64,000 bases of DNA from a virus. The DNA lies in IMG/VR virus record IMGVR_UViG_3300010938_000036, positions 1 to 64,000 of that record; one strand, 5' to 3'. Each line of letters starts with the position of its first letter. Position 1 is the first letter of the stretch. This document shows positions 31,724-48,799 of the stretch, one piece after another. Under the pieces are notes generated by a model, which saw only the letters and a list, made by a program, of their open reading frames with translations, was not told the DNA's origin and searched no databases. Position numbers and translations under genes: made by a program.

Positions 31724-32776
31724 ATGAAGTTTTTATTTTATACAGATATTCATCATGGGGCAGGATTTCGTTATGGTAAATTGAATGAAGATGGAGTTAA
31801 TAGCCGTCTTTTAGCTTCTTTACAAATAGAAGATTTTATAACTTCTTTAATAGATAATCATAAAATAGATTATGTTTTTTTTCTGGGTGATTTAGTTGAA
31901 AGGAGTATGTTTGCATATATTAATGATATGGTAAGGCAACGGATAAAAGGACGGTTATCCAAATGTCCACATTATTTTTTGCGGGGAAATCATGATAGAT
32001 ATTTTAAGGGAATTGATATTTATGGTGATGCTTTGAATACTTTATTAGAGGTAATAAGGGTTCCAGCAATAATAGAATTGAAGGGATTGAGGATAGGATT
32101 TATTCCAGATGGTTCTGATGGTGATGAAGATAAAATTTTAAAAAATAATAAATTGGATTTTTTATTAGTTCATAGGGACATTTTGAATGCTGATTGGGGA
32201 TTTATTCGTTCTACGAAGGGACTTGATAGTCAGAGATTAAGTAAGCAAGCGCATCGTGTTTTATGCGGGCATATTCATAAACCTCAAATTTTACAGAAAA
32301 ATGTGATATGTTTAGGATCTGTAGTTCCTACTGATTTATCTGAATCTGATGGATTATCTCGTGGAATATATATATGGGATTCTGCAACGGATGAATTAGA
32401 ATTGGTAGAAGTTCCAGTTCCGCAATTGGTTAAGTTAGAATGGAATTTTGATGGGAATATGAAAATGTTGGAGCAAAATTTAGAAAAATATAAGGGTCAT
32501 AATGTAGTTTTATTTTTATCTGGTAAAAAGAGGGATTTATTAGAGGTTCAGGAAAATAAGAAGGATTTAGAGAAGGTTGAGTTTGAGAATTTGACTTTAA
32601 TTTTAAGAGGGATAGATGATGAAGTTAAAAATAGTGAGGTATATCAAATTACGGAGCAGGCGAGGGATTTGACTTTGGATGAGAGAATCAGGTTTTATAT
32701 AGAAAAGATGGATAGTAAAGGATTGGATAAAAAGATTTTATTAGAGAAAGGATTTGAAATTTTAAATGAAGTTTGA
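31724..32776 (+). CDS. sbcD: SbcD/Mre11-like recombination nuclease (T4 gp47-like)
   Basis: The 350-residue product has the calcineurin-like phosphoesterase motifs in order: DIHHG (D8, H10), GDLVE (D56), RGNHDR (87-92), LVHRD near 145 and GHIHKP near 185. These bind two metal ions in Mre11/SbcD nucleases. It overlaps the SbcC-like gene by 11 bases, the standard pairing. The complex resects DNA ends and feeds recombination-dependent replication. It opens the replication module after a 54-base gap that follows the fibre genes. Confidence 0.9.
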   Translation: MKFLFYTDIHHGAGFRYGKLNEDGVNSRLLASLQIEDFITSLIDNHKIDYVFFLGDLVERSMFAYINDMVRQRIKGRLSKCPHYFLRGNHDRYFKGIDIYGDALNTLLEVIRVPAIIELKGLRIGFIPDGSDGDEDKILKNNKLDFLLVHRDILNADWGFIRSTKGLDSQRLSKQAHRVLCGHIHKPQILQKNVICLGSVVPTDLSESDGLSRGIYIWDSATDELELVEVPVPQLVKLEWNFDGNMKMLEQNLEKYKGHNVVLFLSGKKRDLLEVQENKKDLEKVEFENLTLILRGIDDEVKNSEVYQITEQARDLTLDERIRFYIEKMDSKGLDKKILLEKGFEILNEV

Positions 32777-34853
32777 ATTAAAAAAGATAAGGTGGCAGAA
32801 TGCATTTATTTTTAATGGAACCTTTGAAGTAAATTTTCCTGAAACTGGGGCTTTTTTGTTGGAGGGGCGAAATCTGGATGCAGGAGGTAGTAATGGTAGT
32901 GGGAAGACTTCTTTTTTGAATTTAATACCCACTGTTCTTTTTGAGGAGAACAATTCTGGGTTAATTAAGGATAAGATTATTAATGCTAATTCTAAGGATG
33001 CTTTTATTGAATTATTTATAAATGATTATAGAATTTTATATCAACGGGGTTCAGAGAATAAATGGAGTGTTTTTAAAAATGGGACTGTTTTTAATCGTGA
33101 GAAAATAACAGATACAAAAGAGATTATTAAAGAACTTTTTGGACTGGATTTTAGGCGTTATGCCAGTATTATTCATTTGTGTCAGAATTCTACTTTAGGA
33201 TTTTTTTCGTTTAGTCCGACTGAAAGGTTAAGATTATTGACAGAGATTTTGGAATTAGAAAGGTTTGACAGGGCTTCTGATAAATCTCGTGAGAAAATGG
33301 TAGGTAGTAAGGAAAGGGTAGAGGGATTGCGACAGAGGTTAACAGAAATAGAGACAGAAAGACAGAGAATTTTAGAACAGATAAAGGGGCTATTAATTGT
33401 TCGGGATGATTTGGATACTTTGAAAAGGAAGAGAGATAGTATTGATTATGAGATAGAGCAGATGAAACAGGTTTTACTTCAGCAAAATGAAGATATGGTT
33501 CAAAAAAGGATGTTATATGAAGCATCTTTGCGTTCAAGGCAGGAGTATCAAATACAAATAGAACAAAAGAATAGAAGGATAATGCAATTAAGACAGAAGC
33601 AGAATGAATATGAAGGATTGGTTCAAAGGATTGAATATTTAGAGGGATTACAAAGTAATGTTACTGATTTAGAGAAGGAAGAGGAGTTAAAGGATGATTT
33701 GGCGGTTTTAATGGATAAAAAATTGGATTTTTCAAAAGAGATAGAGCGTTTAAGGGAACAAAAAAGGCAGTTAGAAAAAATAATAAATTTAGAAATAGGA
33801 AATGATTGTCCTGTTTGTGGTAGAGTTTTAACTGAGGAAATAATACATAAAAGGCGGAAGCATTTACAGGAAGAATTAAAACAGAAGGATAAAGAAATAT
33901 TAGCCAAGGAAGGGGAGATTACAAAGATAGATCAGGAGTTAGATAGGATAAGGGATAAGCACAAGAGATTAGAAGAACAGCGTAAGAAAAATCAGAAGAT
34001 TTTATCTGAGATTTTACAATTGCGTAAGGAATTAGAAGGTTTATCTGGGATTAATTCTGAGATTAAAATTTTAGAACAGGATTTAGAGATTTTACAAAAT
34101 CAATTAAATGAAGTGAACAATAAATTTGAGGCAGAGAGGGTTGCCTTTATAGAATCACAGGAAAGGATGAATGAAATCAAACAAAAAATAGATTTTTTAT
34201 CTATGGAGCAAAAGGAAATTTTAAATCGTATTGTTTTTTATGAGCGTCAGATGGAAATAAGAGAACAGTGTGAGAGGCGGTTAGATGAATTAAAATTGAG
34301 ATATGATGAATTATTACAACAAATTAAAGAGGGTGAAATGGATGTAGCAGTTTATGATTGGTTGCAGGATGCTTTTAAGAAGATAAAATTATTTGAAATA
34401 GAGCATACAATTAATTTATTACAGAATTATCTTAATTATTATATAGAACTATTATTTGAAAACAGGATGACTGTTCAGTTGGATGTTTTTAAATTTAAAA
34501 AGCAAAAGAAATCGGCTTTTGATTTAAAGAATGAACTTAATATAACAATTAATAATTCAGTTGTGTCGTTAGAAGGGTTTAGCGGAGGAGAGAAGCAATT
34601 ATTAAGTATTGCTATGCTTTTGGCTTTAAATGATTTTTTTGGTTATAAGATAGTTTTACTGGATGAAGTTTTTGGAAGTTTGGATACGGTTAATAGAGAA
34701 AGAGTGATACGGTTATTAAATGGATTACGGCACAAAAAATTAGTTATTGTAGTTACTCATATTGAGGATGTAAAATCTGCATTAGATTGGGATGGAGTTT
34801 TATTGGTGGAGCGTAAGGATAATTGTTCAAGATTTATTAGTCAGGTTGCATAA
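32766..34853 (+). CDS. sbcC: SbcC/Rad50-like ATPase (T4 gp46-like)
   Basis: The 695-residue product has the Rad50/SbcC layout. The Walker A is GSNGSGKTSF near 40-50, followed by a long coiled coil, a zinc hook CPVC near 340, a second coiled coil, the ABC signature FSGGEKQLLSIAM near 605 and Walker B IVLLDEVFGSLD near 635. It dimerises and gates the SbcD-like nuclease encoded just upstream. It is shorter than cellular SbcC, close to phage gp46. It overlaps the next gene by one base. Confidence 0.92.
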   Translation: MKFELKKIRWQNAFIFNGTFEVNFPETGAFLLEGRNLDAGGSNGSGKTSFLNLIPTVLFEENNSGLIKDKIINANSKDAFIELFINDYRILYQRGSENKWSVFKNGTVFNREKITDTKEIIKELFGLDFRRYASIIHLCQNSTLGFFSFSPTERLRLLTEILELERFDRASDKSREKMVGSKERVEGLRQRLTEIETERQRILEQIKGLLIVRDDLDTLKRKRDSIDYEIEQMKQVLLQQNEDMVQKRMLYEASLRSRQEYQIQIEQKNRRIMQLRQKQNEYEGLVQRIEYLEGLQSNVTDLEKEEELKDDLAVLMDKKLDFSKEIERLREQKRQLEKIINLEIGNDCPVCGRVLTEEIIHKRRKHLQEELKQKDKEILAKEGEITKIDQELDRIRDKHKRLEEQRKKNQKILSEILQLRKELEGLSGINSEIKILEQDLEILQNQLNEVNNKFEAERVAFIESQERMNEIKQKIDFLSMEQKEILNRIVFYERQMEIREQCERRLDELKLRYDELLQQIKEGEMDVAVYDWLQDAFKKIKLFEIEHTINLLQNYLNYYIELLFENRMTVQLDVFKFKKQKKSAFDLKNELNITINNSVVSLEGFSGGEKQLLSIAMLLALNDFFGYKIVLLDEVFGSLDTVNRERVIRLLNGLRHKKLVIVVTHIEDVKSALDWDGVLLVERKDNCSRFISQVA

Positions 34854-35905
34854 TGGAAAATTTAGTAATTTTTGATGGGAATTTATTTTTAAATTCTTCT
34901 AAGTTTATTACTATAATGGATTGTATAAATTTTATTCAGGATAAATTGAATTTTTATCAGGGTTTTGGAACGGTAGTTTGGCAGGATTTGAGAATTAAGC
35001 GCACTGGATATTTAAATCCTATTGATAGGTTGGGATGTAAGGAAATAGAAACTAAAATTGGTTTAAATTTTATTGCAGATTTTTTGACAGTGGTTGGTAT
35101 GCCACAGGTTTTATTTCCAGAGCAATTGACATCTGAAAGTGTTAATTTGCTTTTGAATTCAGAATTTTTGACAAGGTTTTTTAAACAGAAAATTATAATA
35201 ACAGAAGATAGAGAATTCTGGAAATTTGCTGGTGATAATGTTGTTATAGATTTTAATAATAAATTGATGACCAGCAGGGATATTTTGAATGAAATAGGGT
35301 TTACTCCTGAGGAATTAAAAAATGGACAGGAACCTTTATATTCACAATTGGATTTAGAGGATATTTTTATTAATACAGTTATAAATGAAAATCGTTTAAA
35401 AAATGAATTTTTAACTGCTTGTCTGACTTTTGATAATAATTTTTGGTGGGAATATGTGGATAAAAGTAAGGATAAAAGGCGAATGATTCGTTCAGAATTT
35501 TATAAAACTTGTAATAAATGTGGTAAGGGAGTAAGGCAGGATTTTTTTGACCCAAGTGCTGATATTTTTTTATTATTTAATAGACCAGTAGGATTGAATT
35601 TTAATAATAGCATTATAAGTTTTTTACAGGAGGAATTAAAGGATTATAAAATATCTTTTTTATTGGTTTCTTTATGTGATTTTTATTTACCCACATTAAA
35701 TAGTAATTGTTTATCCAGATTTTTAGCCGATTTTTCTGATATTAAAAATGGAGGTCAAAAAGTAATTATTATAATGGATGATAGAATTTTTAAAATTTTA
35801 TTACATGAGGATTTATTTGTGACTAAGAATTATGTGGTTTTTCATTTGGATAATTCTTTAAATGAATTATTGCAATTTATTAAAAAGAGGGTTAGTACAA
35901 AATGA
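34853..35905 (+). CDS. Fusion of FEN/PIN-like nuclease domain and degenerate UDG-like iron-sulfur domain (inferred)
   Basis: The 350-residue product is not a standard family member. Its first 160 residues recall 5'-nucleases: VIFDGN at 5-10, IIITEDREFW at 114-123, then TSRDILNEIGFTPEEL at 140-155, similar in order to the FEN 'GDxDLLQL ... TPEDVxEKxGVPPEQ' region. The C-terminal half resembles family 4 uracil-DNA glycosylases: C220-x2-C223, ADIFLLFNRPVG at 236-247 in place of the usual GEAPG, and C275 and C286, a possible 4Fe-4S set. The UDG catalytic motif is altered. Both matches are by eye. It lies among recombination genes, overlapping both neighbours. Confidence 0.45.
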   Translation: MENLVIFDGNLFLNSSKFITIMDCINFIQDKLNFYQGFGTVVWQDLRIKRTGYLNPIDRLGCKEIETKIGLNFIADFLTVVGMPQVLFPEQLTSESVNLLLNSEFLTRFFKQKIIITEDREFWKFAGDNVVIDFNNKLMTSRDILNEIGFTPEELKNGQEPLYSQLDLEDIFINTVINENRLKNEFLTACLTFDNNFWWEYVDKSKDKRRMIRSEFYKTCNKCGKGVRQDFFDPSADIFLLFNRPVGLNFNNSIISFLQEELKDYKISFLLVSLCDFYLPTLNSNCLSRFLADFSDIKNGGQKVIIIMDDRIFKILLHEDLFVTKNYVVFHLDNSLNELLQFIKKRVSTK

Positions 35906-37650: not shown

Positions 37651-38419
37651 TAAAAATTTTATAAAGGAGATTAAAAGGACTGCTTTGCGTGTTCATTCTA
37701 AATCTTCATCAAGGTCAATGCCGATTGGGGTTACGGGTTTATTAGAGATGAAGGAGAATACTAATAAATTTACGCAGGGATTAGTTTTGTGGCGTAAAGC
37801 GATGTATTTTTTTTTTGGATTGGAGCATTTAAAAATAAGTTCCGCAGAAATCAAAATTTTGAAATCCTTATGGGGTATGGTTAGCGAGGATGAATTTTTA
37901 TTTAATTTGTTTTTATTAATGTATGAATATAAATTTACAAAATGGTATAGGCAAAGACAGTTAGTGCCTTCTTTATTTAGTTTGTCTAAAAATTGGAATA
38001 GATTGAGTTTGATGCAGCAAAAATTTTTAAATCTTTTTGAGTTATATAAAAAAAATAAGGATTTTTATAATTTTTTAGGGTTACAGCCTTTTGTAATTAT
38101 TGAGGACAATAAGGTTCCTTTTGGATTGAATTTGCCGGTGGATATCAGAAATAAGGGATATCAGATGCGGGATATAATACGGATTGAGGGGCGTCGTTTA
38201 ATTTTAATAGATTTTAATGGAGATTTGTTTGAGGTTATGGGTTATTGTCATTTTGGTTATAAGGTAGATAATATTACACAGGAATTTGTGGAATCGCATA
38301 ATGAGGTGCTCTGGGTAGACTTGGATAAGGTTAAGGATGTTCATTTGAGATTATGGTTTAATAAAGATTTATTATTACAGGATACCAGAAAGGAAATAGA
38401 ATGTTTATTGAAAGATTAG
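37628..38419 (+). CDS. Hypothetical replication-module protein
   Basis: The 263-residue product begins with a basic Ser-rich segment, then a helical middle and a beta-rich C-terminal part (FVIIEDNKVPFGLNLP, RRLILIDFNGDLFEVMGY). It overlaps the SNF2 gene and the helicase-loader gene, so it is embedded in the replication operon. No motif recognised. Confidence 0.5.
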   Translation: MKSSSKFSKNFIKEIKRTALRVHSKSSSRSMPIGVTGLLEMKENTNKFTQGLVLWRKAMYFFFGLEHLKISSAEIKILKSLWGMVSEDEFLFNLFLLMYEYKFTKWYRQRQLVPSLFSLSKNWNRLSLMQQKFLNLFELYKKNKDFYNFLGLQPFVIIEDNKVPFGLNLPVDIRNKGYQMRDIIRIEGRRLILIDFNGDLFEVMGYCHFGYKVDNITQEFVESHNEVLWVDLDKVKDVHLRLWFNKDLLLQDTRKEIECLLKD

Positions 38420-39142: not shown

Positions 39143-40489
39143 ATGAAATTAAAAATTCATGAATTTGTTAAACCATTTTTAGCCGCTTTTTTAAGGGATG
39201 AAGAATTTTTTATCAGGATTAAGGATGATATTTTATTATTTACTTTTGATTCTATTCAGGCAGGGTTGGATTTTATTATAGAGAGAGCGATTAATTTTTA
39301 TAATACTTATAAAAAAATGCCAAATAAAGAATTTTTGTTATTGGAGGTAGAAACAGGAGATTTTAAGGAGGAACAAGTTTTTTTATTAACTAAAATAATT
39401 GAGGAAATTTATTCTTTATCTTTAACGGATGAGAATTATAAGGTTGATAAGTTTGTCGAGTATTTTTATAAGTTATTGTTCCAAACAGAATTTGAGGAAT
39501 TATTAAATGAAATTAAGGATTCTAAAAATTTTGATATACAATCAACAATACGAAAATGTTATAAATTTTTAAATAAAATCAGTCATTATAAGCAAAAAGA
39601 TTTGTTCTGGGATTTGGTGGGTGAATTTGTTAAAAGGGAAGAAGAACGAGGATTAAAAAAGGATAATAAGCGATTATTTTTAGGAATTAAGGATTTAGAT
39701 GATCAACTGGAAATTATACCTGGGACAATAACTGCTTTTTTGGCGCCTTTCAAGCGTTATAAAAGTATTACCTTAACGCATGTTGGATGGGCGGCTTTAA
39801 TGCAGGGATTTAATGTTTTCCATATCAATTATGAAGGAAGGCGTGAGATGTGGGAAGCAAGATATGATGCACGATTGACGGATGTAGATTATAAAAAGAT
39901 TATTTCAAAGGAAATACGCACTCCAGAGGAACAACAAAGGATTGAGACAATTTATAATATTTTATCAAAATTAAAGCAGAGGTTATTTCTTGCTTATGGT
40001 GATCCTTATAAAACTAATGTTGATGATATAGAGCGGATGATTGAAAAGATAGAGAATGATATTGGAGCGAGGATTGATGTAGTTATTATAGATTATTTTC
40101 AGATTATGGGAAGTAGTATGATGAAGGTTCTTAAAGGCGAAGATGACTGGTTAATGCAGGGTAATATAGCATGGGATTTAGTGCGGTTAGCAAGAAATCC
40201 TGAATATGAGCGTATAATAGTAGGTGCGTTACAAACAAAAATGACTGGTCTTTCAGCGAGTTCAATTAAAAGTCAGCATTCAGGACGGTCTATAATTTTT
40301 CCACAGGCGATTGATAATTTAATAGCAATAAATCAGACTGAGGATGAATTTAGAGAAGGGGTTATAAGATTTTCTCCTTTATTTATTCGGGAGGGAGAAA
40401 TTAAAAAGGAACACTGTAAGGTAGAGGCAGAATTATGGAAAATTAAGATTGCAAAGGAAGCGGATAAACTATGGAACAAAATACTTTGA
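39143..40489 (+). CDS. DnaB-like replicative helicase with atypical P-loop
   Basis: The 448-residue product has a helical N-terminal domain and a RecA-like C-terminal domain with INYEGRREMWEARYDARLTDV near 228-248 and Walker B VVIIDYFQIM near 315. The order matches phage DnaB-type helicases. The P-loop reads APFKRYKS at 201-208, where related proteins have A-P-x-G-R-G-K-S: Lys and Ser are kept but both glycines are lost. Whether it binds ATP normally is unclear. Position after the loader and before the primase supports a replicative role. Confidence 0.75.
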   Translation: MKLKIHEFVKPFLAAFLRDEEFFIRIKDDILLFTFDSIQAGLDFIIERAINFYNTYKKMPNKEFLLLEVETGDFKEEQVFLLTKIIEEIYSLSLTDENYKVDKFVEYFYKLLFQTEFEELLNEIKDSKNFDIQSTIRKCYKFLNKISHYKQKDLFWDLVGEFVKREEERGLKKDNKRLFLGIKDLDDQLEIIPGTITAFLAPFKRYKSITLTHVGWAALMQGFNVFHINYEGRREMWEARYDARLTDVDYKKIISKEIRTPEEQQRIETIYNILSKLKQRLFLAYGDPYKTNVDDIERMIEKIENDIGARIDVVIIDYFQIMGSSMMKVLKGEDDWLMQGNIAWDLVRLARNPEYERIIVGALQTKMTGLSASSIKSQHSGRSIIFPQAIDNLIAINQTEDEFREGVIRFSPLFIREGEIKKEHCKVEAELWKIKIAKEADKLWNKIL

Positions 40490-40797
40490 AAGAATTTTAT
40501 TATGATTTTTTATTACAGGTTTATGAGATTTTAGAAGATGATATTGCTCAATTTTATCATGAATTAGAGAAAACTCTTGGCTACGATAAGGAGCAAGGTC
40601 AAGGTATGGAATTCAATACTCAGAGAATTATTTTTTTGTTATTTTTTTATAAGGAATTGGTAAATTTTATGACGAGATTATTTGAAACAGAAAAGGTTTT
40701 GACTTCTGAAAAAATTAAGGAACATTTTACTCAGTGGCGTAATAATCAAAAAATTTTGGAGGAGTTTGATGAATTTATACGAGTATCTCAGAAGTAA
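40471..40797 (+). CDS. Hypothetical helical protein between helicase and primase
   Basis: This is a 108-residue acidic helical protein overlapping the helicase gene by 19 bases and the primase gene by about 29. It could be a small helicase-primase accessory factor, but only gene order supports that. No motif recognised. Confidence 0.5.
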   Translation: MEQNTLKEFYYDFLLQVYEILEDDIAQFYHELEKTLGYDKEQGQGMEFNTQRIIFLLFFYKELVNFMTRLFETEKVLTSEKIKEHFTQWRNNQKILEEFDEFIRVSQK

Positions 40798-41714: not shown

Positions 41715-41915
41715 ATGAGGATTGAATTAGATTTAATACCTTTTGAAGAAGCAGCAAGGATGATACCTTGTCATAAGACTTTATTATATTATTATTTAAA
41801 GAGGGATAAAATTCCTGTTTATGTAATAGCCAATAGATATTTTATAGATAACGAAACATTAGAAGAAATTAGGAAAAATTTGAAGGAGAAAAAATGGACT
41901 TACAAGAAGAATTAG
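41715..41915 (+). CDS. Small helix-turn-helix DNA-binding protein (excisionase/MerR-like)
   Basis: The start is ATG 41715. An in-frame codon at 41658 would place translation across the promoter. The 66-residue product fits the HTH_17/excisionase pattern: PFEEAARMIPCHKTLLYYYLKRDKIPVYVIANRYFI. It probably binds DNA as a regulator. It is transcribed from a consensus promoter with no room for a Shine-Dalgarno, and it overlaps the sigma-like gene by 22 bases, suggesting they act together. Confidence 0.7.
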   Translation: MRIELDLIPFEEAARMIPCHKTLLYYYLKRDKIPVYVIANRYFIDNETLEEIRKNLKEKKWTYKKN

Positions 41916-42871
41916 TAAATTTTTGTCAAAATAAGAGTAGTTTTCAGTTTGTTTCAAATTTAATTCAGGAAGAGGTGGACGATTTACAGCAGGATTTTTT
42001 CCTTTATTGTTTCAGGCGTTTAAAGGATTTTGATAGTAGCAAGGGTTCTTTAAAAAATTTTTTCAGGGTTTTATTACAACATTTTTTATCTGAAAGGGTA
42101 AGGGTATATAATGAACATAAAAGGAAATTTGTAAATTATGAATTAATGGAGGTTTTAAGAAAAGAAGGAACCAGAGATTCTGAATTAGAGATTTTAGAAC
42201 ATGAAATAATAAATGTTAGAAATTTGAAGAAGGAGGTTAAAATGAAGCAAGATTTAAGAGAATTATTTTTTGATTTGATTGTAAATTTGTGGAATGAGGA
42301 GGAAAAGCGTGCTATTAAGGAGTATGTTAAAAAGGATGTTTTTACAACTGATGATATTTATCCTTGTTTTGGATTTTTTTATTGGAAGGATAAGGAGTGT
42401 GAGAAATGTATTTTAAAAAGGCTATGCAGGGAAGCAATAAAGCAAGTTTGGATACCGTATATTTTTGATTTTATAAGGACTTTAACACCAGAGGAGAAAC
42501 AAGAATTTGTTTTAACAATTGTTCAGATTTTTGAACCTTTAATTCAAATTAGGAATGTAGAGAAGAAGGTCGGTTCAACTGTTTCTGGTTTATCTGCAAT
42601 TCAGGATAAATATAAACTTGAGACTTATGGATTTAAGATTAATAGCAGAATGGGACGGTTAGTTTATTATTTATTAGAGAATGATGGTGATATAGATAAA
42701 GCGGTAGAACAAACTGCAAATGAATTTCATGAAGATCCCAAAAGTATATCCAGGTATTTCAGAACGCAGGGATTTTATTTTTTAAGGAAGCGTGGGTTTA
42801 AAATAGAGAAACTTGATAATAAAAGGATTAAATTGATTTTCCCTGAGGGGACTGTAAATGCAAATTCTTAG
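41894..42871 (+). CDS. Sigma factor region 2-like protein with Cys4 insert
   Basis: The 325-residue product has a segment near residues 25-80 that resembles sigma-70 region 2: VDDLQQDFFLYCFRRLKDFD, then KGSLKNFFRVLLQHFLSERVR. A C-P-rich insert follows, with C158, C169, C172 and C178 as likely zinc ligands. The C-terminal part (about 250-310) has a helix-turn-helix look (DIDKAVEQTANEFHEDPKSISRYF). There is no clear region 4. It may redirect host RNA polymerase to late promoters. The call is by pattern only. Confidence 0.5.
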   Translation: MDLQEELVNFCQNKSSFQFVSNLIQEEVDDLQQDFFLYCFRRLKDFDSSKGSLKNFFRVLLQHFLSERVRVYNEHKRKFVNYELMEVLRKEGTRDSELEILEHEIINVRNLKKEVKMKQDLRELFFDLIVNLWNEEEKRAIKEYVKKDVFTTDDIYPCFGFFYWKDKECEKCILKRLCREAIKQVWIPYIFDFIRTLTPEEKQEFVLTIVQIFEPLIQIRNVEKKVGSTVSGLSAIQDKYKLETYGFKINSRMGRLVYYLLENDGDIDKAVEQTANEFHEDPKSISRYFRTQGFYFLRKRGFKIEKLDNKRIKLIFPEGTVNANS

Positions 42872-45294: not shown

Positions 45295-46245
45295 ATGCCA
45301 TTAGTAGATAAATATAGACCAAGGGTTTTTTCAGAATTTTATGGGAATAGTGCGGTAATAGAAAGGGTTAAAAAAATATTAATACAGAAAGATATTCCGC
45401 ATGCTTTTTTAATTGTAGGAGATTATGGTATCGGTAAAACATCATTAGCCAGGTTGATGGCTCGTGCTTTAAATTGTGATAAGTTTGCGGAGAAGTTGGA
45501 AATTTGTTTGGAATGTGATAATTGTAAAAAAATGAATAAAATGACTTATGATATTTTAGAAATTGATGCAGCAACAAATCGTGGAATTCAGGAAATTCGT
45601 AGAGTGAAGGATTTTTTGATTGCGCATCCCTTTGAGTTAAGACGCAAGGTTTTGATTTTGGATGAGACACAGCAATTGACAAGTGAAGCAGTATCCGCAT
45701 TATTAAAAATTGTGGAAGAACCTCCTGAATTTTCTTTTATTATAATGGTAACTACAAATCAGGAACAAATAATAAAGAGTTTATTGAGTAGATTATTTGT
45801 TATTAAATTGGAAAGGCCGACATCACAGGTTTTAAGAAATTTTTTACGAGATATTTGTTCTAAAGAACAGATGAATGAGCCAGTTTTACCAGAAGGAGTT
45901 GCGACTTTTAGAGATATTTTAAATTGGTTAGAAGGTTCAAATATTAGTTTTATTAATATAAGTTTGGAACAATTTTTATTATTATGGAAGCAGGGAGAAT
46001 TACAAAAAATAATAAACTTTGTGCAGGAACAACCTATTCCATTTGAATTTTTAATTTTTGTTATTAATAATTTGATAGAAAGGATAAGTAAGATTAATTC
46101 TGGAAATAATTTATTGTTTTTATCAGGGTTAATCAATATTGTTAGTTTAATGCAACATTTACCTAATACTGCTTTTAACAGGGTTTTTTTGGTGCGGTCA
46201 ATTTTTATGATTGAACAGTTATTAAATCAGTATTTAAAAAAGTAA
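45295..46245 (+). CDS. DnaX-like clamp loader ATPase
   Basis: The 316-residue AAA+ protein begins VDKYRPRVFSEFYGN, typical of DnaX/RFC. It has Walker A GDYGIGKTS at 42-50, a zinc module with CLECDNC near 76-82, Walker B VLILDETQQ near 120 and an SRLF sensor near 160. A single loader gene suggests a homo-oligomer, or combination with host subunits. It begins immediately after the polymerase stop. Confidence 0.85.
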   Translation: MPLVDKYRPRVFSEFYGNSAVIERVKKILIQKDIPHAFLIVGDYGIGKTSLARLMARALNCDKFAEKLEICLECDNCKKMNKMTYDILEIDAATNRGIQEIRRVKDFLIAHPFELRRKVLILDETQQLTSEAVSALLKIVEEPPEFSFIIMVTTNQEQIIKSLLSRLFVIKLERPTSQVLRNFLRDICSKEQMNEPVLPEGVATFRDILNWLEGSNISFINISLEQFLLLWKQGELQKIINFVQEQPIPFEFLIFVINNLIERISKINSGNNLLFLSGLINIVSLMQHLPNTAFNRVFLVRSIFMIEQLLNQYLKK

Positions 46246-47007: not shown

Positions 47008-48147
47008 ATGAAATTTGTAGAAGGGTTTTTAGGTGATGGAGCAAGGGAACAAAAAGGAATAGGCAGAGGTCCAATGTTTTGTACTCTTAATCCATTGGAA
47101 GCGGGTAAACAATTTGTTAATCGTTTATTGTTTTTCCCATTTAGACCGTCCAGATTACCAATCTTTAATATGGTTGATCCTGAATTATATACTTTACGGG
47201 TTCCTTTACAATTACATTATTTACTCTATGAAGATATCAATGGAGAAATTCAGAGGGCTACTTATTTGTGTAAGAGAGAAATGACCAAATTATTTATTGC
47301 TAATTTTGGTAATGGCGAATATTTTGGACAGGATTGTAGTCTATGTCAGCAATCTGATAAATTGTATGAAAAATATAATGAAAGAAGGAAACAGGTTGGT
47401 TTATATAAGGTTAAGATGGATAAGGATGAATATTTAAAAAGAGTTAAAGCGGATGAAGTTCTTAATCATATATATAATGAGCAGAGGAGGTTTAAACCTA
47501 TATTGAGATATTTGTATTTGGTATTTGATTTAAGTAAATATTTAGGAGAAAAGGAAGCAATGGATGAGGCGATGGGTGTTGAGTTTTTGATGGCAGGTAA
47601 ACAGATTAAGGATGGATTACAGGCGCAAATTTTAGCAGGGCATAAATTCTGGGATTTGAATGAAGGATTAAAGGTAGTAAGAATCACTAAGGATACTACT
47701 GAGGGATATACAACAAGCGGGATTTTGAGGTCAAGTTATTCTGTAGCAATTGAACCTAAAAGTTATGAATTACCTCAAGAGTTGAAACAGTATTTTGCTT
47801 CTGGACCTTTTGTAGAAGGGGATTTTATACCTTTCTGGGATGATGATATTTCTTTGGATAATTTGGTTAAAGTGGATAAGGAGATTGAGCAAGCAGGAGA
47901 AAGGGAACAACAAGAAATTAAAAGACCATTAATTGCACAGCCACAGGAGGATATTAAGCGGGATCATGAAAAAGTGCCTGAAATACCAAAGGTTATGACT
48001 AAAGGAACAGATGGTATTGTACCGCCTGGAAGTTCTATATCCAAGGGAGTAGATATTAAAACTGTTCCTATTTCTCCGTTAAAGGAGCAAGGGAATGAGA
48101 TGGAACCAAAGAAAACAGGTAGTCCTACTAAACGAATAAGATTTTGA
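47008..48147 (+). CDS. Single-stranded DNA-binding protein candidate (gp32-like)
   Basis: The 379-residue product resembles phage gp32-type proteins. It has an N-terminal region rich in aromatic residues, a possible zinc site (C88, C110-x2-C113) and a beta segment GHKFWDLNEGLKVVRITKDTTEGYTTSGI near 212-240. The C-terminal 90 residues are low-complexity and charged, as in many SSBs, but end basic (KKTGSPTKRIRF) rather than acidic. It precedes the RecA-like gene. The assignment is by pattern and context. Confidence 0.55.
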   Translation: MKFVEGFLGDGAREQKGIGRGPMFCTLNPLEAGKQFVNRLLFFPFRPSRLPIFNMVDPELYTLRVPLQLHYLLYEDINGEIQRATYLCKREMTKLFIANFGNGEYFGQDCSLCQQSDKLYEKYNERRKQVGLYKVKMDKDEYLKRVKADEVLNHIYNEQRRFKPILRYLYLVFDLSKYLGEKEAMDEAMGVEFLMAGKQIKDGLQAQILAGHKFWDLNEGLKVVRITKDTTEGYTTSGILRSSYSVAIEPKSYELPQELKQYFASGPFVEGDFIPFWDDDISLDNLVKVDKEIEQAGEREQQEIKRPLIAQPQEDIKRDHEKVPEIPKVMTKGTDGIVPPGSSISKGVDIKTVPISPLKEQGNEMEPKKTGSPTKRIRF

Positions 48148-48148
48148 A

Positions 48149-48799
48149 ATGATTAAGTTTGAGGATAACGGATTTGGTTTTATAAAACGGAGTGATAGAG
48201 CAGAGGAAAAAAAAGATAGATGTTTGACGGGATGGGAGGTAATCGATAATGTTTTGAGATTACCTCCTTTTTCTATTATACAGGTTTTTGGATGGGAAGA
48301 TGTAGGTAAGACTTCTTTTGCTTTATTTTTTGCCAGAAAATTTAAAGAAAAAAATCCAGATAAACGGGTTTTATTTTTTGATTTAGATAAAACACTTGAT
48401 TTAAGTTTTGCTCAAAAGATTATTGATAATGCAGAAATTATAGTTTTAAAATTAAGTAGGATAGATGACATTTTATATAGTGTAGCAGAAATTCAACCTG
48501 AATTAATAATTTTTGATTCTATTGTTAATTTAGAAAATTTAAATATCAGGGAAATGATAAGATTAATTAAGGGTATCAAAAATAAAATAGATAAGGGGAT
48601 AATTTTATTGGTTAATCAGAAAAGGCAGAGTAATTTTGTAGAAACCATCTTTTTATGGGATATTTATTTTTTATCTTTTTTAGTGGCGGAGTTAACTAAA
48701 GAACCTCTTATTAATGATAATTTTGCGGTTAAAATTTTTTTTAATAAAGCACCAGCGATTCTTTTAAATAAAGAATTTAAGGTTGATTTTATTTTATAA
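48149..48799 (+). CDS. RecA/UvsX-like recombinase ATPase
   Basis: The 216-residue product has a RecA core: CLTGWEVIDNVL near 25-36, Walker A GWEDVGKTS at 48-56, a Walker B-like ELIIFDSIVNL near 125, and LLVNQKRQ near 150. It is shorter than bacterial RecA and lacks the C-terminal domain, as in some phage and archaeal-type recombinases. With the SbcCD-like pair and the ssDNA-binding candidate it would complete a strand-exchange set. Confidence 0.75.
   Translation: MIKFEDNGFGFIKRSDRAEEKKDRCLTGWEVIDNVLRLPPFSIIQVFGWEDVGKTSFALFFARKFKEKNPDKRVLFFDLDKTLDLSFAQKIIDNAEIIVLKLSRIDDILYSVAEIQPELIIFDSIVNLENLNIREMIRLIKGIKNKIDKGIILLVNQKRQSNFVETIFLWDIYFLSFLVAELTKEPLINDNFAVKIFFNKAPAILLNKEFKVDFIL

Follow-up and report, generated by a model that had tools for sequence, protein, structure and literature searches.

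A viral replication-operon protein with a probable FEN-like N-terminal region and a candidate UDG-like C-terminal domain

The DNA considered here is a window of 64,000 bases from a 64,820-base IMG/VR virus record. It has a GC content of about 31%, and nearly all of its long, non-overlapping ORFs are found on the plus strand; the GC skew is strongly positive (0.23-0.50) from position 1 to 64000. A tightly packed replication operon encodes, in order, SbcD, SbcC, a protein of 350 amino acids, an SNF2 helicase, DnaC, DnaB, a primase, PolA and the clamp loader (Table 1). The ORF for the 350-aa protein starts in a one-base overlap with the stop codon of SbcC, and its end overlaps the start of the SNF2 helicase (ATGA). 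Its codon statistics come to 0.24 in its own frame and are negative in all five others, and it is a real, coding gene. All the motifs that an initial annotation had quoted from it are present, i.e., VIFDGN, TEDREFW, SRDILNEIGFTPEEL (residues 141-155), CNKC, ADIFLLFNRPVG (residues 236-247) and two later cysteines.

Two other proteins are recorded here as separate observations. The first is a 325-aa orphan (41894-42871) with the primase on one side and PolA on the other, which bears a cysteine cluster, CFGFFYWKDKECEKC...C, and has a weak match to sigma-70 region 2 (PF04542, E 0.022). The second, of 379 aa (47008-48147), has a CSLC-type cluster, resembles by eye a 325-aa protein of the related phage G001 (L054:4744-5721), and is possibly an ssDNA-binding protein.

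Table 1. Positions in the window of the 350-aa ORF, its candidate domains and motifs, and the neighbouring genes
Feature	Position	Strand	Basis or remark
350-aa ORF, candidate FEN-like + UDG-like fusion	34853..35905	+	coding; overlaps both neighbours
FEN/PolA-5'-nuclease-like region, residues 1-160	34853..35332	+	hhalign against 10-member FEN profile
D8 of VIFDGN (5-10), equivalent of first Cat1 aspartate	34874..34876	+	alignment; Cat1 residues per PMC3783174
TSES (93-96) where conserved EADD belongs; ligands lost	35129..35140	+	alignment
TEDREFW (117-123), equivalent of FEN SGDKDxxQ; D119 kept	35201..35221	+	alignment and profile
UDG-superfamily-like candidate domain, residues 212-350	35486..35902	+	topology, fold comparison; low confidence
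CNKC (C220, C223), candidate first 4Fe-4S ligand pair	35510..35521	+	UDG cysteine register, hhalign and MAFFT
FNRPV (242-246) at place of GE[AG]PG; catalytic acid lost	35576..35590	+	hhalign; register by eye
C275, candidate third 4Fe-4S ligand	35675..35677	+	hhalign and MAFFT
C286, candidate fourth 4Fe-4S ligand	35708..35710	+	hhalign and MAFFT
Compact PolA, 480 aa	43852..45294	+	matches PF00476 alone; UDG, 5' nuclease and 3' exonuclease not recognised
SbcD	starts at 31724
SbcC	starts at 32766
SNF2 helicase	starts at 35902
DnaC-like	starts at 38401
DnaB-like	starts at 39143
Primase	starts at 40766
Clamp loader	starts at 45295
UvsX-like	starts at 48149

The 350-aa protein is an orphan, with no detectable relatives in the databases searched. 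It has no match in the PDB, and its matches in Pfam, NCBIfam and PHROGs are weak and meaningless, the N-terminal domain having none in Pfam. Searching named phages with tblastn gave no meaningful match, the sole one (E=8, L076) running antisense to a long reading frame. Peptide-pattern scans of IMG/VR and GTDB yielded no homologue, the IMG/VR scans being queried with the 350-aa protein, SNF2, SbcC, PolA and portal, and the single match of a DNA pattern scan for TEDREFW (L069) was judged to be due to chance. A protein search in 30 kin and other viral records, which had no positive control, gave no match at E<=5. Related phages were found with the portal protein, the nearest (L010) at 47% identity; two records reached via SbcC (L002 and L003) are fragmentary and hold tail and portal-like genes but not the 350-aa gene.

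When the protein is compared by hhalign with a profile of ten FEN/PolA 5'-nuclease sequences, its N-terminal region scores 26.1, a value reached by none of 200 shuffles, and the full-length protein ranks first when 111 proteins, taken from the window and from further viral loci, are compared. The E-value is 0.0034, valid for one comparison, at a probability of 9.5%, and with a smaller FEN profile 1 shuffle in 100 reached the score. The alignment spans residues 69-156, running from the helix before the EADD position through TEDREFW and ending in the helix at TSRDILNEIGFTPEEL; the alignments from the global mode of hhalign were of no use and were set aside. Pairwise scores against some FENs exceed those of most shuffles (7/500 for G024, 10/500 for 6vde and 12/500 for Taq). 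In a plain hmmsearch the protein reaches just rank 2 with E=1.0, and from this follows that the FEN signal is moderate. The family profile PF02739 is not significantly matched by the N-terminal half, and has no match at E<=10 in the 64.8-kb record.

The residues that bind metal in Cat1 of FENs are known (PMC3783174), and the set of five carboxylates is incomplete here. D8 and D119 are kept, E121 conservatively replaces the second aspartate in SGDKD, TSES stands in place of EADD, and the counterpart of the FD aspartate is uncertain (W43-D45). In the alignment, the GDxxDN/H3TH motif is absent from residues 156-205. The replacement of EADD together with the missing GDxxDN/H3TH suggests a degraded nuclease, and activity would be weak or none. 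The 5'-nuclease likeness that had originally been proposed from the motif order is backed by the profile ranking, but does not extend to EADD and H3TH/GDxxDN. Judged by its sequence, the N-terminus is likely to be FEN-like, in degraded form.

In the C-terminal half, C220, C223, C275 and C286 are in register with all four Fe-S cysteines of family-4 UDG, both by hhalign and by MAFFT. Their spacing is shorter than in 1vk2, and random placement of four cysteines in 147 residues gives such a spacing in about 0.2% of cases (p about 0.002, with spacing limits set post hoc). ADIFLL pairs in the alignment with the first strand of family-4 UDG. The catalytic motifs GE[AG]PG and HPS are not kept: FNRPV occupies the place of the former, in agreement with the earlier observation that GEAPG is replaced, and the latter reads HLD (residues 331-333), where H331 may occupy the position of the HPS histidine. 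Since GEGPG reads FNRPV, uracil excision is unlikely. The UDG profile is not significantly matched: 17 of 200 shuffles reach the C-terminal hhalign score, the full-length protein ranks 26th of 111, the hmmsearch match of the C-terminal half is not significant, and PF03167 has no match at E<=10 in the whole 64.8-kb record. A local alignment with UdgX, from C286 to just past H331, is surpassed by 5 of 500 shuffles and is one of twelve such tests.

Single-sequence AF2 models have a pLDDT of 34.7 at full length and 49.6 for the C-domain alone. In the C-terminal half of these low-confidence models, strands and helices alternate in UDG order; residues 1-200 have a pLDDT of 20-39. When the full model is compared with known folds by VIA, the family-4 UDG 4zby heads the list (Z 6.7, rmsd 3.1, 116 aligned), with an equal score for the unrelated folds of Argonaute MID and PurE, and 1mug, 1ui1 and 1l9g are also within the best 50 matches. 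For the isolated C-domain, Argonaute MID and dehydroquinase lead, with no UDG among the 50 matches listed, and the model fits many Rossmann-type folds equally well. Foldseek gave nothing at E<=0.001, and two PDB searches had no UDG among the top matches listed; in BFVD, a UDG-like phage protein (rank 4) and the UDG of a crAss-like phage (rank 21) are without significance. A mixed FEN and UDG alignment was rejected as AF2 input, since the domains had been misplaced by MAFFT.

The polymerase of the window is compact and carries no 5' nuclease, as had been claimed. A Pfam search finds no PF01612 exonuclease domain in it; its first ~170 residues match no family, and a DTE motif suggests a remnant of a 3'-5' exonuclease domain. 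The SPO1 polymerase bears a UDG domain at its N-terminus, for which a part in processivity has been suggested (PMC5135824), and a long frame of G001 consists of UDG, 3' exonuclease and PolA. PF03167 occurs in open frames of 875-1183 aa in the kin phages G001, G002, G003 and Rctr197k, and also in Thermus phage phiLo, while PF02739 is absent from all of these. Similar long frames in G011 and G012 have an N-terminal UDG match that falls below cut-off, and the cysteine pattern is gone from them. A separate FEN is present in G005, G009, G013, G014, G017, G018 and G024, and a UDG frame is absent there, with the exception of phage G, where it is separate. In phage G the UDG-like domain lies C-terminally in a frame of 331 aa (L062:936-1929), the N-terminus of which reads nucleotide-kinase-like (P-loop GPDGSGKTT). 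In G003, frames resembling ribonucleotide reductase and RecA have intein-like interruptions (L055:8346-11645 and L055:17131-19953). Because UDG is joined to PolA in SPO1 and kin while PolA is compact here, it is reasonable, if unproven, that this phage should have a UDG-like domain standing free of the polymerase.

The order of the cysteines, the topology, one fold comparison and the UDG-PolA proteins of kin phages make a UDG-like C-terminus plausible and slightly favoured, although the profile score is not significant. That it is present together with a FEN-like N-terminus has close to an even chance, and the pairing would be unusual. The best explanation, to which we assign a probability of about 45%, is that the protein is a diverged replication accessory, with a FEN-like N-domain (PIN/5'-nuclease fold) of eroded active site and a four-cysteine, UDG-like C-domain that lacks the glycosylase residues. 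It might then work beside the compact PolA in lagging-strand processing as a DNA-binding factor that recognises flaps or junctions, and so take over in trans the role of the N-terminal UDG-like domain in the UDG-exo-PolA of related phages. Of this reading, the analysis shows the gene, its operon, the likeness of the N-terminal sequence to FENs and the lack of any recognised FEN or UDG elsewhere in the record, while the UDG fold, the Fe-S cluster, DNA binding and the loss of catalysis are inferred. Somewhat more tentatively, it could be an undescribed fusion of an inactive or altered flap-nuclease fold with a non-catalytic 4Fe-4S UDG-like fold, serving as a stand-alone polymerase accessory, in which case the UDG-like domain would have left PolA or never have joined it. 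A limited literature search found no paper on a fusion of FEN-like and UDG-like domains.

A less probable alternative is that the likeness is confined to the FEN-like N-terminus, and that the C-terminus is an unrelated small Rossmann-type alpha/beta domain, the CxxC of which may bind zinc or nothing. The insignificant UDG profile scores and the many Rossmann-type folds that fit the C-domain model equally well favour this, but the four C-terminal cysteines follow the family-4 UDG order, UDG comes first when VIA is run with the full model, and kin phages have UDG-like domains on PolA. It is unlikely that neither domain exists and that chance explains the motif resemblances of an orphan protein of replication or recombination that evolves fast; the lack of meaningful database matches and the low-confidence models agree with this, but the FEN profile ranks the protein first, ahead of every shuffle and in register from the EADD helix to the helix that follows TEDREFW. 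An active bifunctional enzyme that supplies flap nuclease and uracil-DNA glycosylase in trans to PolA, as the initial annotation had suggested, is improbable: D8, D119, E121 and possibly H331 are in place and no other FEN or UDG is recognised in the record, but EADD is lost to TSES, the GDxxDN/H3TH stretch is missing, and GEGPG and HPS read FNRPV and HLD. With EADD and H3TH/GDxxDN not conserved, supply of the nuclease in trans is doubtful.

What UDG-like domains do on phage polymerases is not settled, processivity having been suggested (PMC5135824). If the diverged-accessory reading is true, a free-standing copy beside a polymerase without UDG would permit separate tests of domain and polymerase, and a phage replisome would gain an Fe-S protein.

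Among known systems, the UDG-3'exo-PolA proteins of SPO1-like phages and jumbo phages (SPO1, Shbh1, phiLo, Rctr197k and G001) bring a UDG-like domain into the replication apparatus, as is proposed here. In the G001 polymerase, moreover, GE[AG]PG is also replaced (by RNFPS) while the cysteines are kept, as in the 350-aa protein. In those proteins, however, UDG is N-terminal on PolA, whereas the 350-aa protein, FEN-like and separate from PolA, would carry it at the C-terminus. With phage and PolA 5'-nucleases (T5 D15, the N-domain of Taq PolA, PF02739) the protein has in common the motif order of DGN, the SGDKD-like motif and the next strand-helix, but it differs from them in lacking EADD, H3TH/GDxxDN and a PF02739 match. 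A reduced set of metal ligands is found also in the ExoIX/Xni FENs; ExoIX has lost Cat2 and kept all five Cat1 carboxylates (PMC3783174), whereas in the 350-aa protein Cat1 is incomplete as well. With family-4 UDGs (1ui0, 1vk2 and 4zby) it differs in its absent catalytic motifs and insignificant profile match, but shares the order of the four cysteines and the predicted order of strands and helices.
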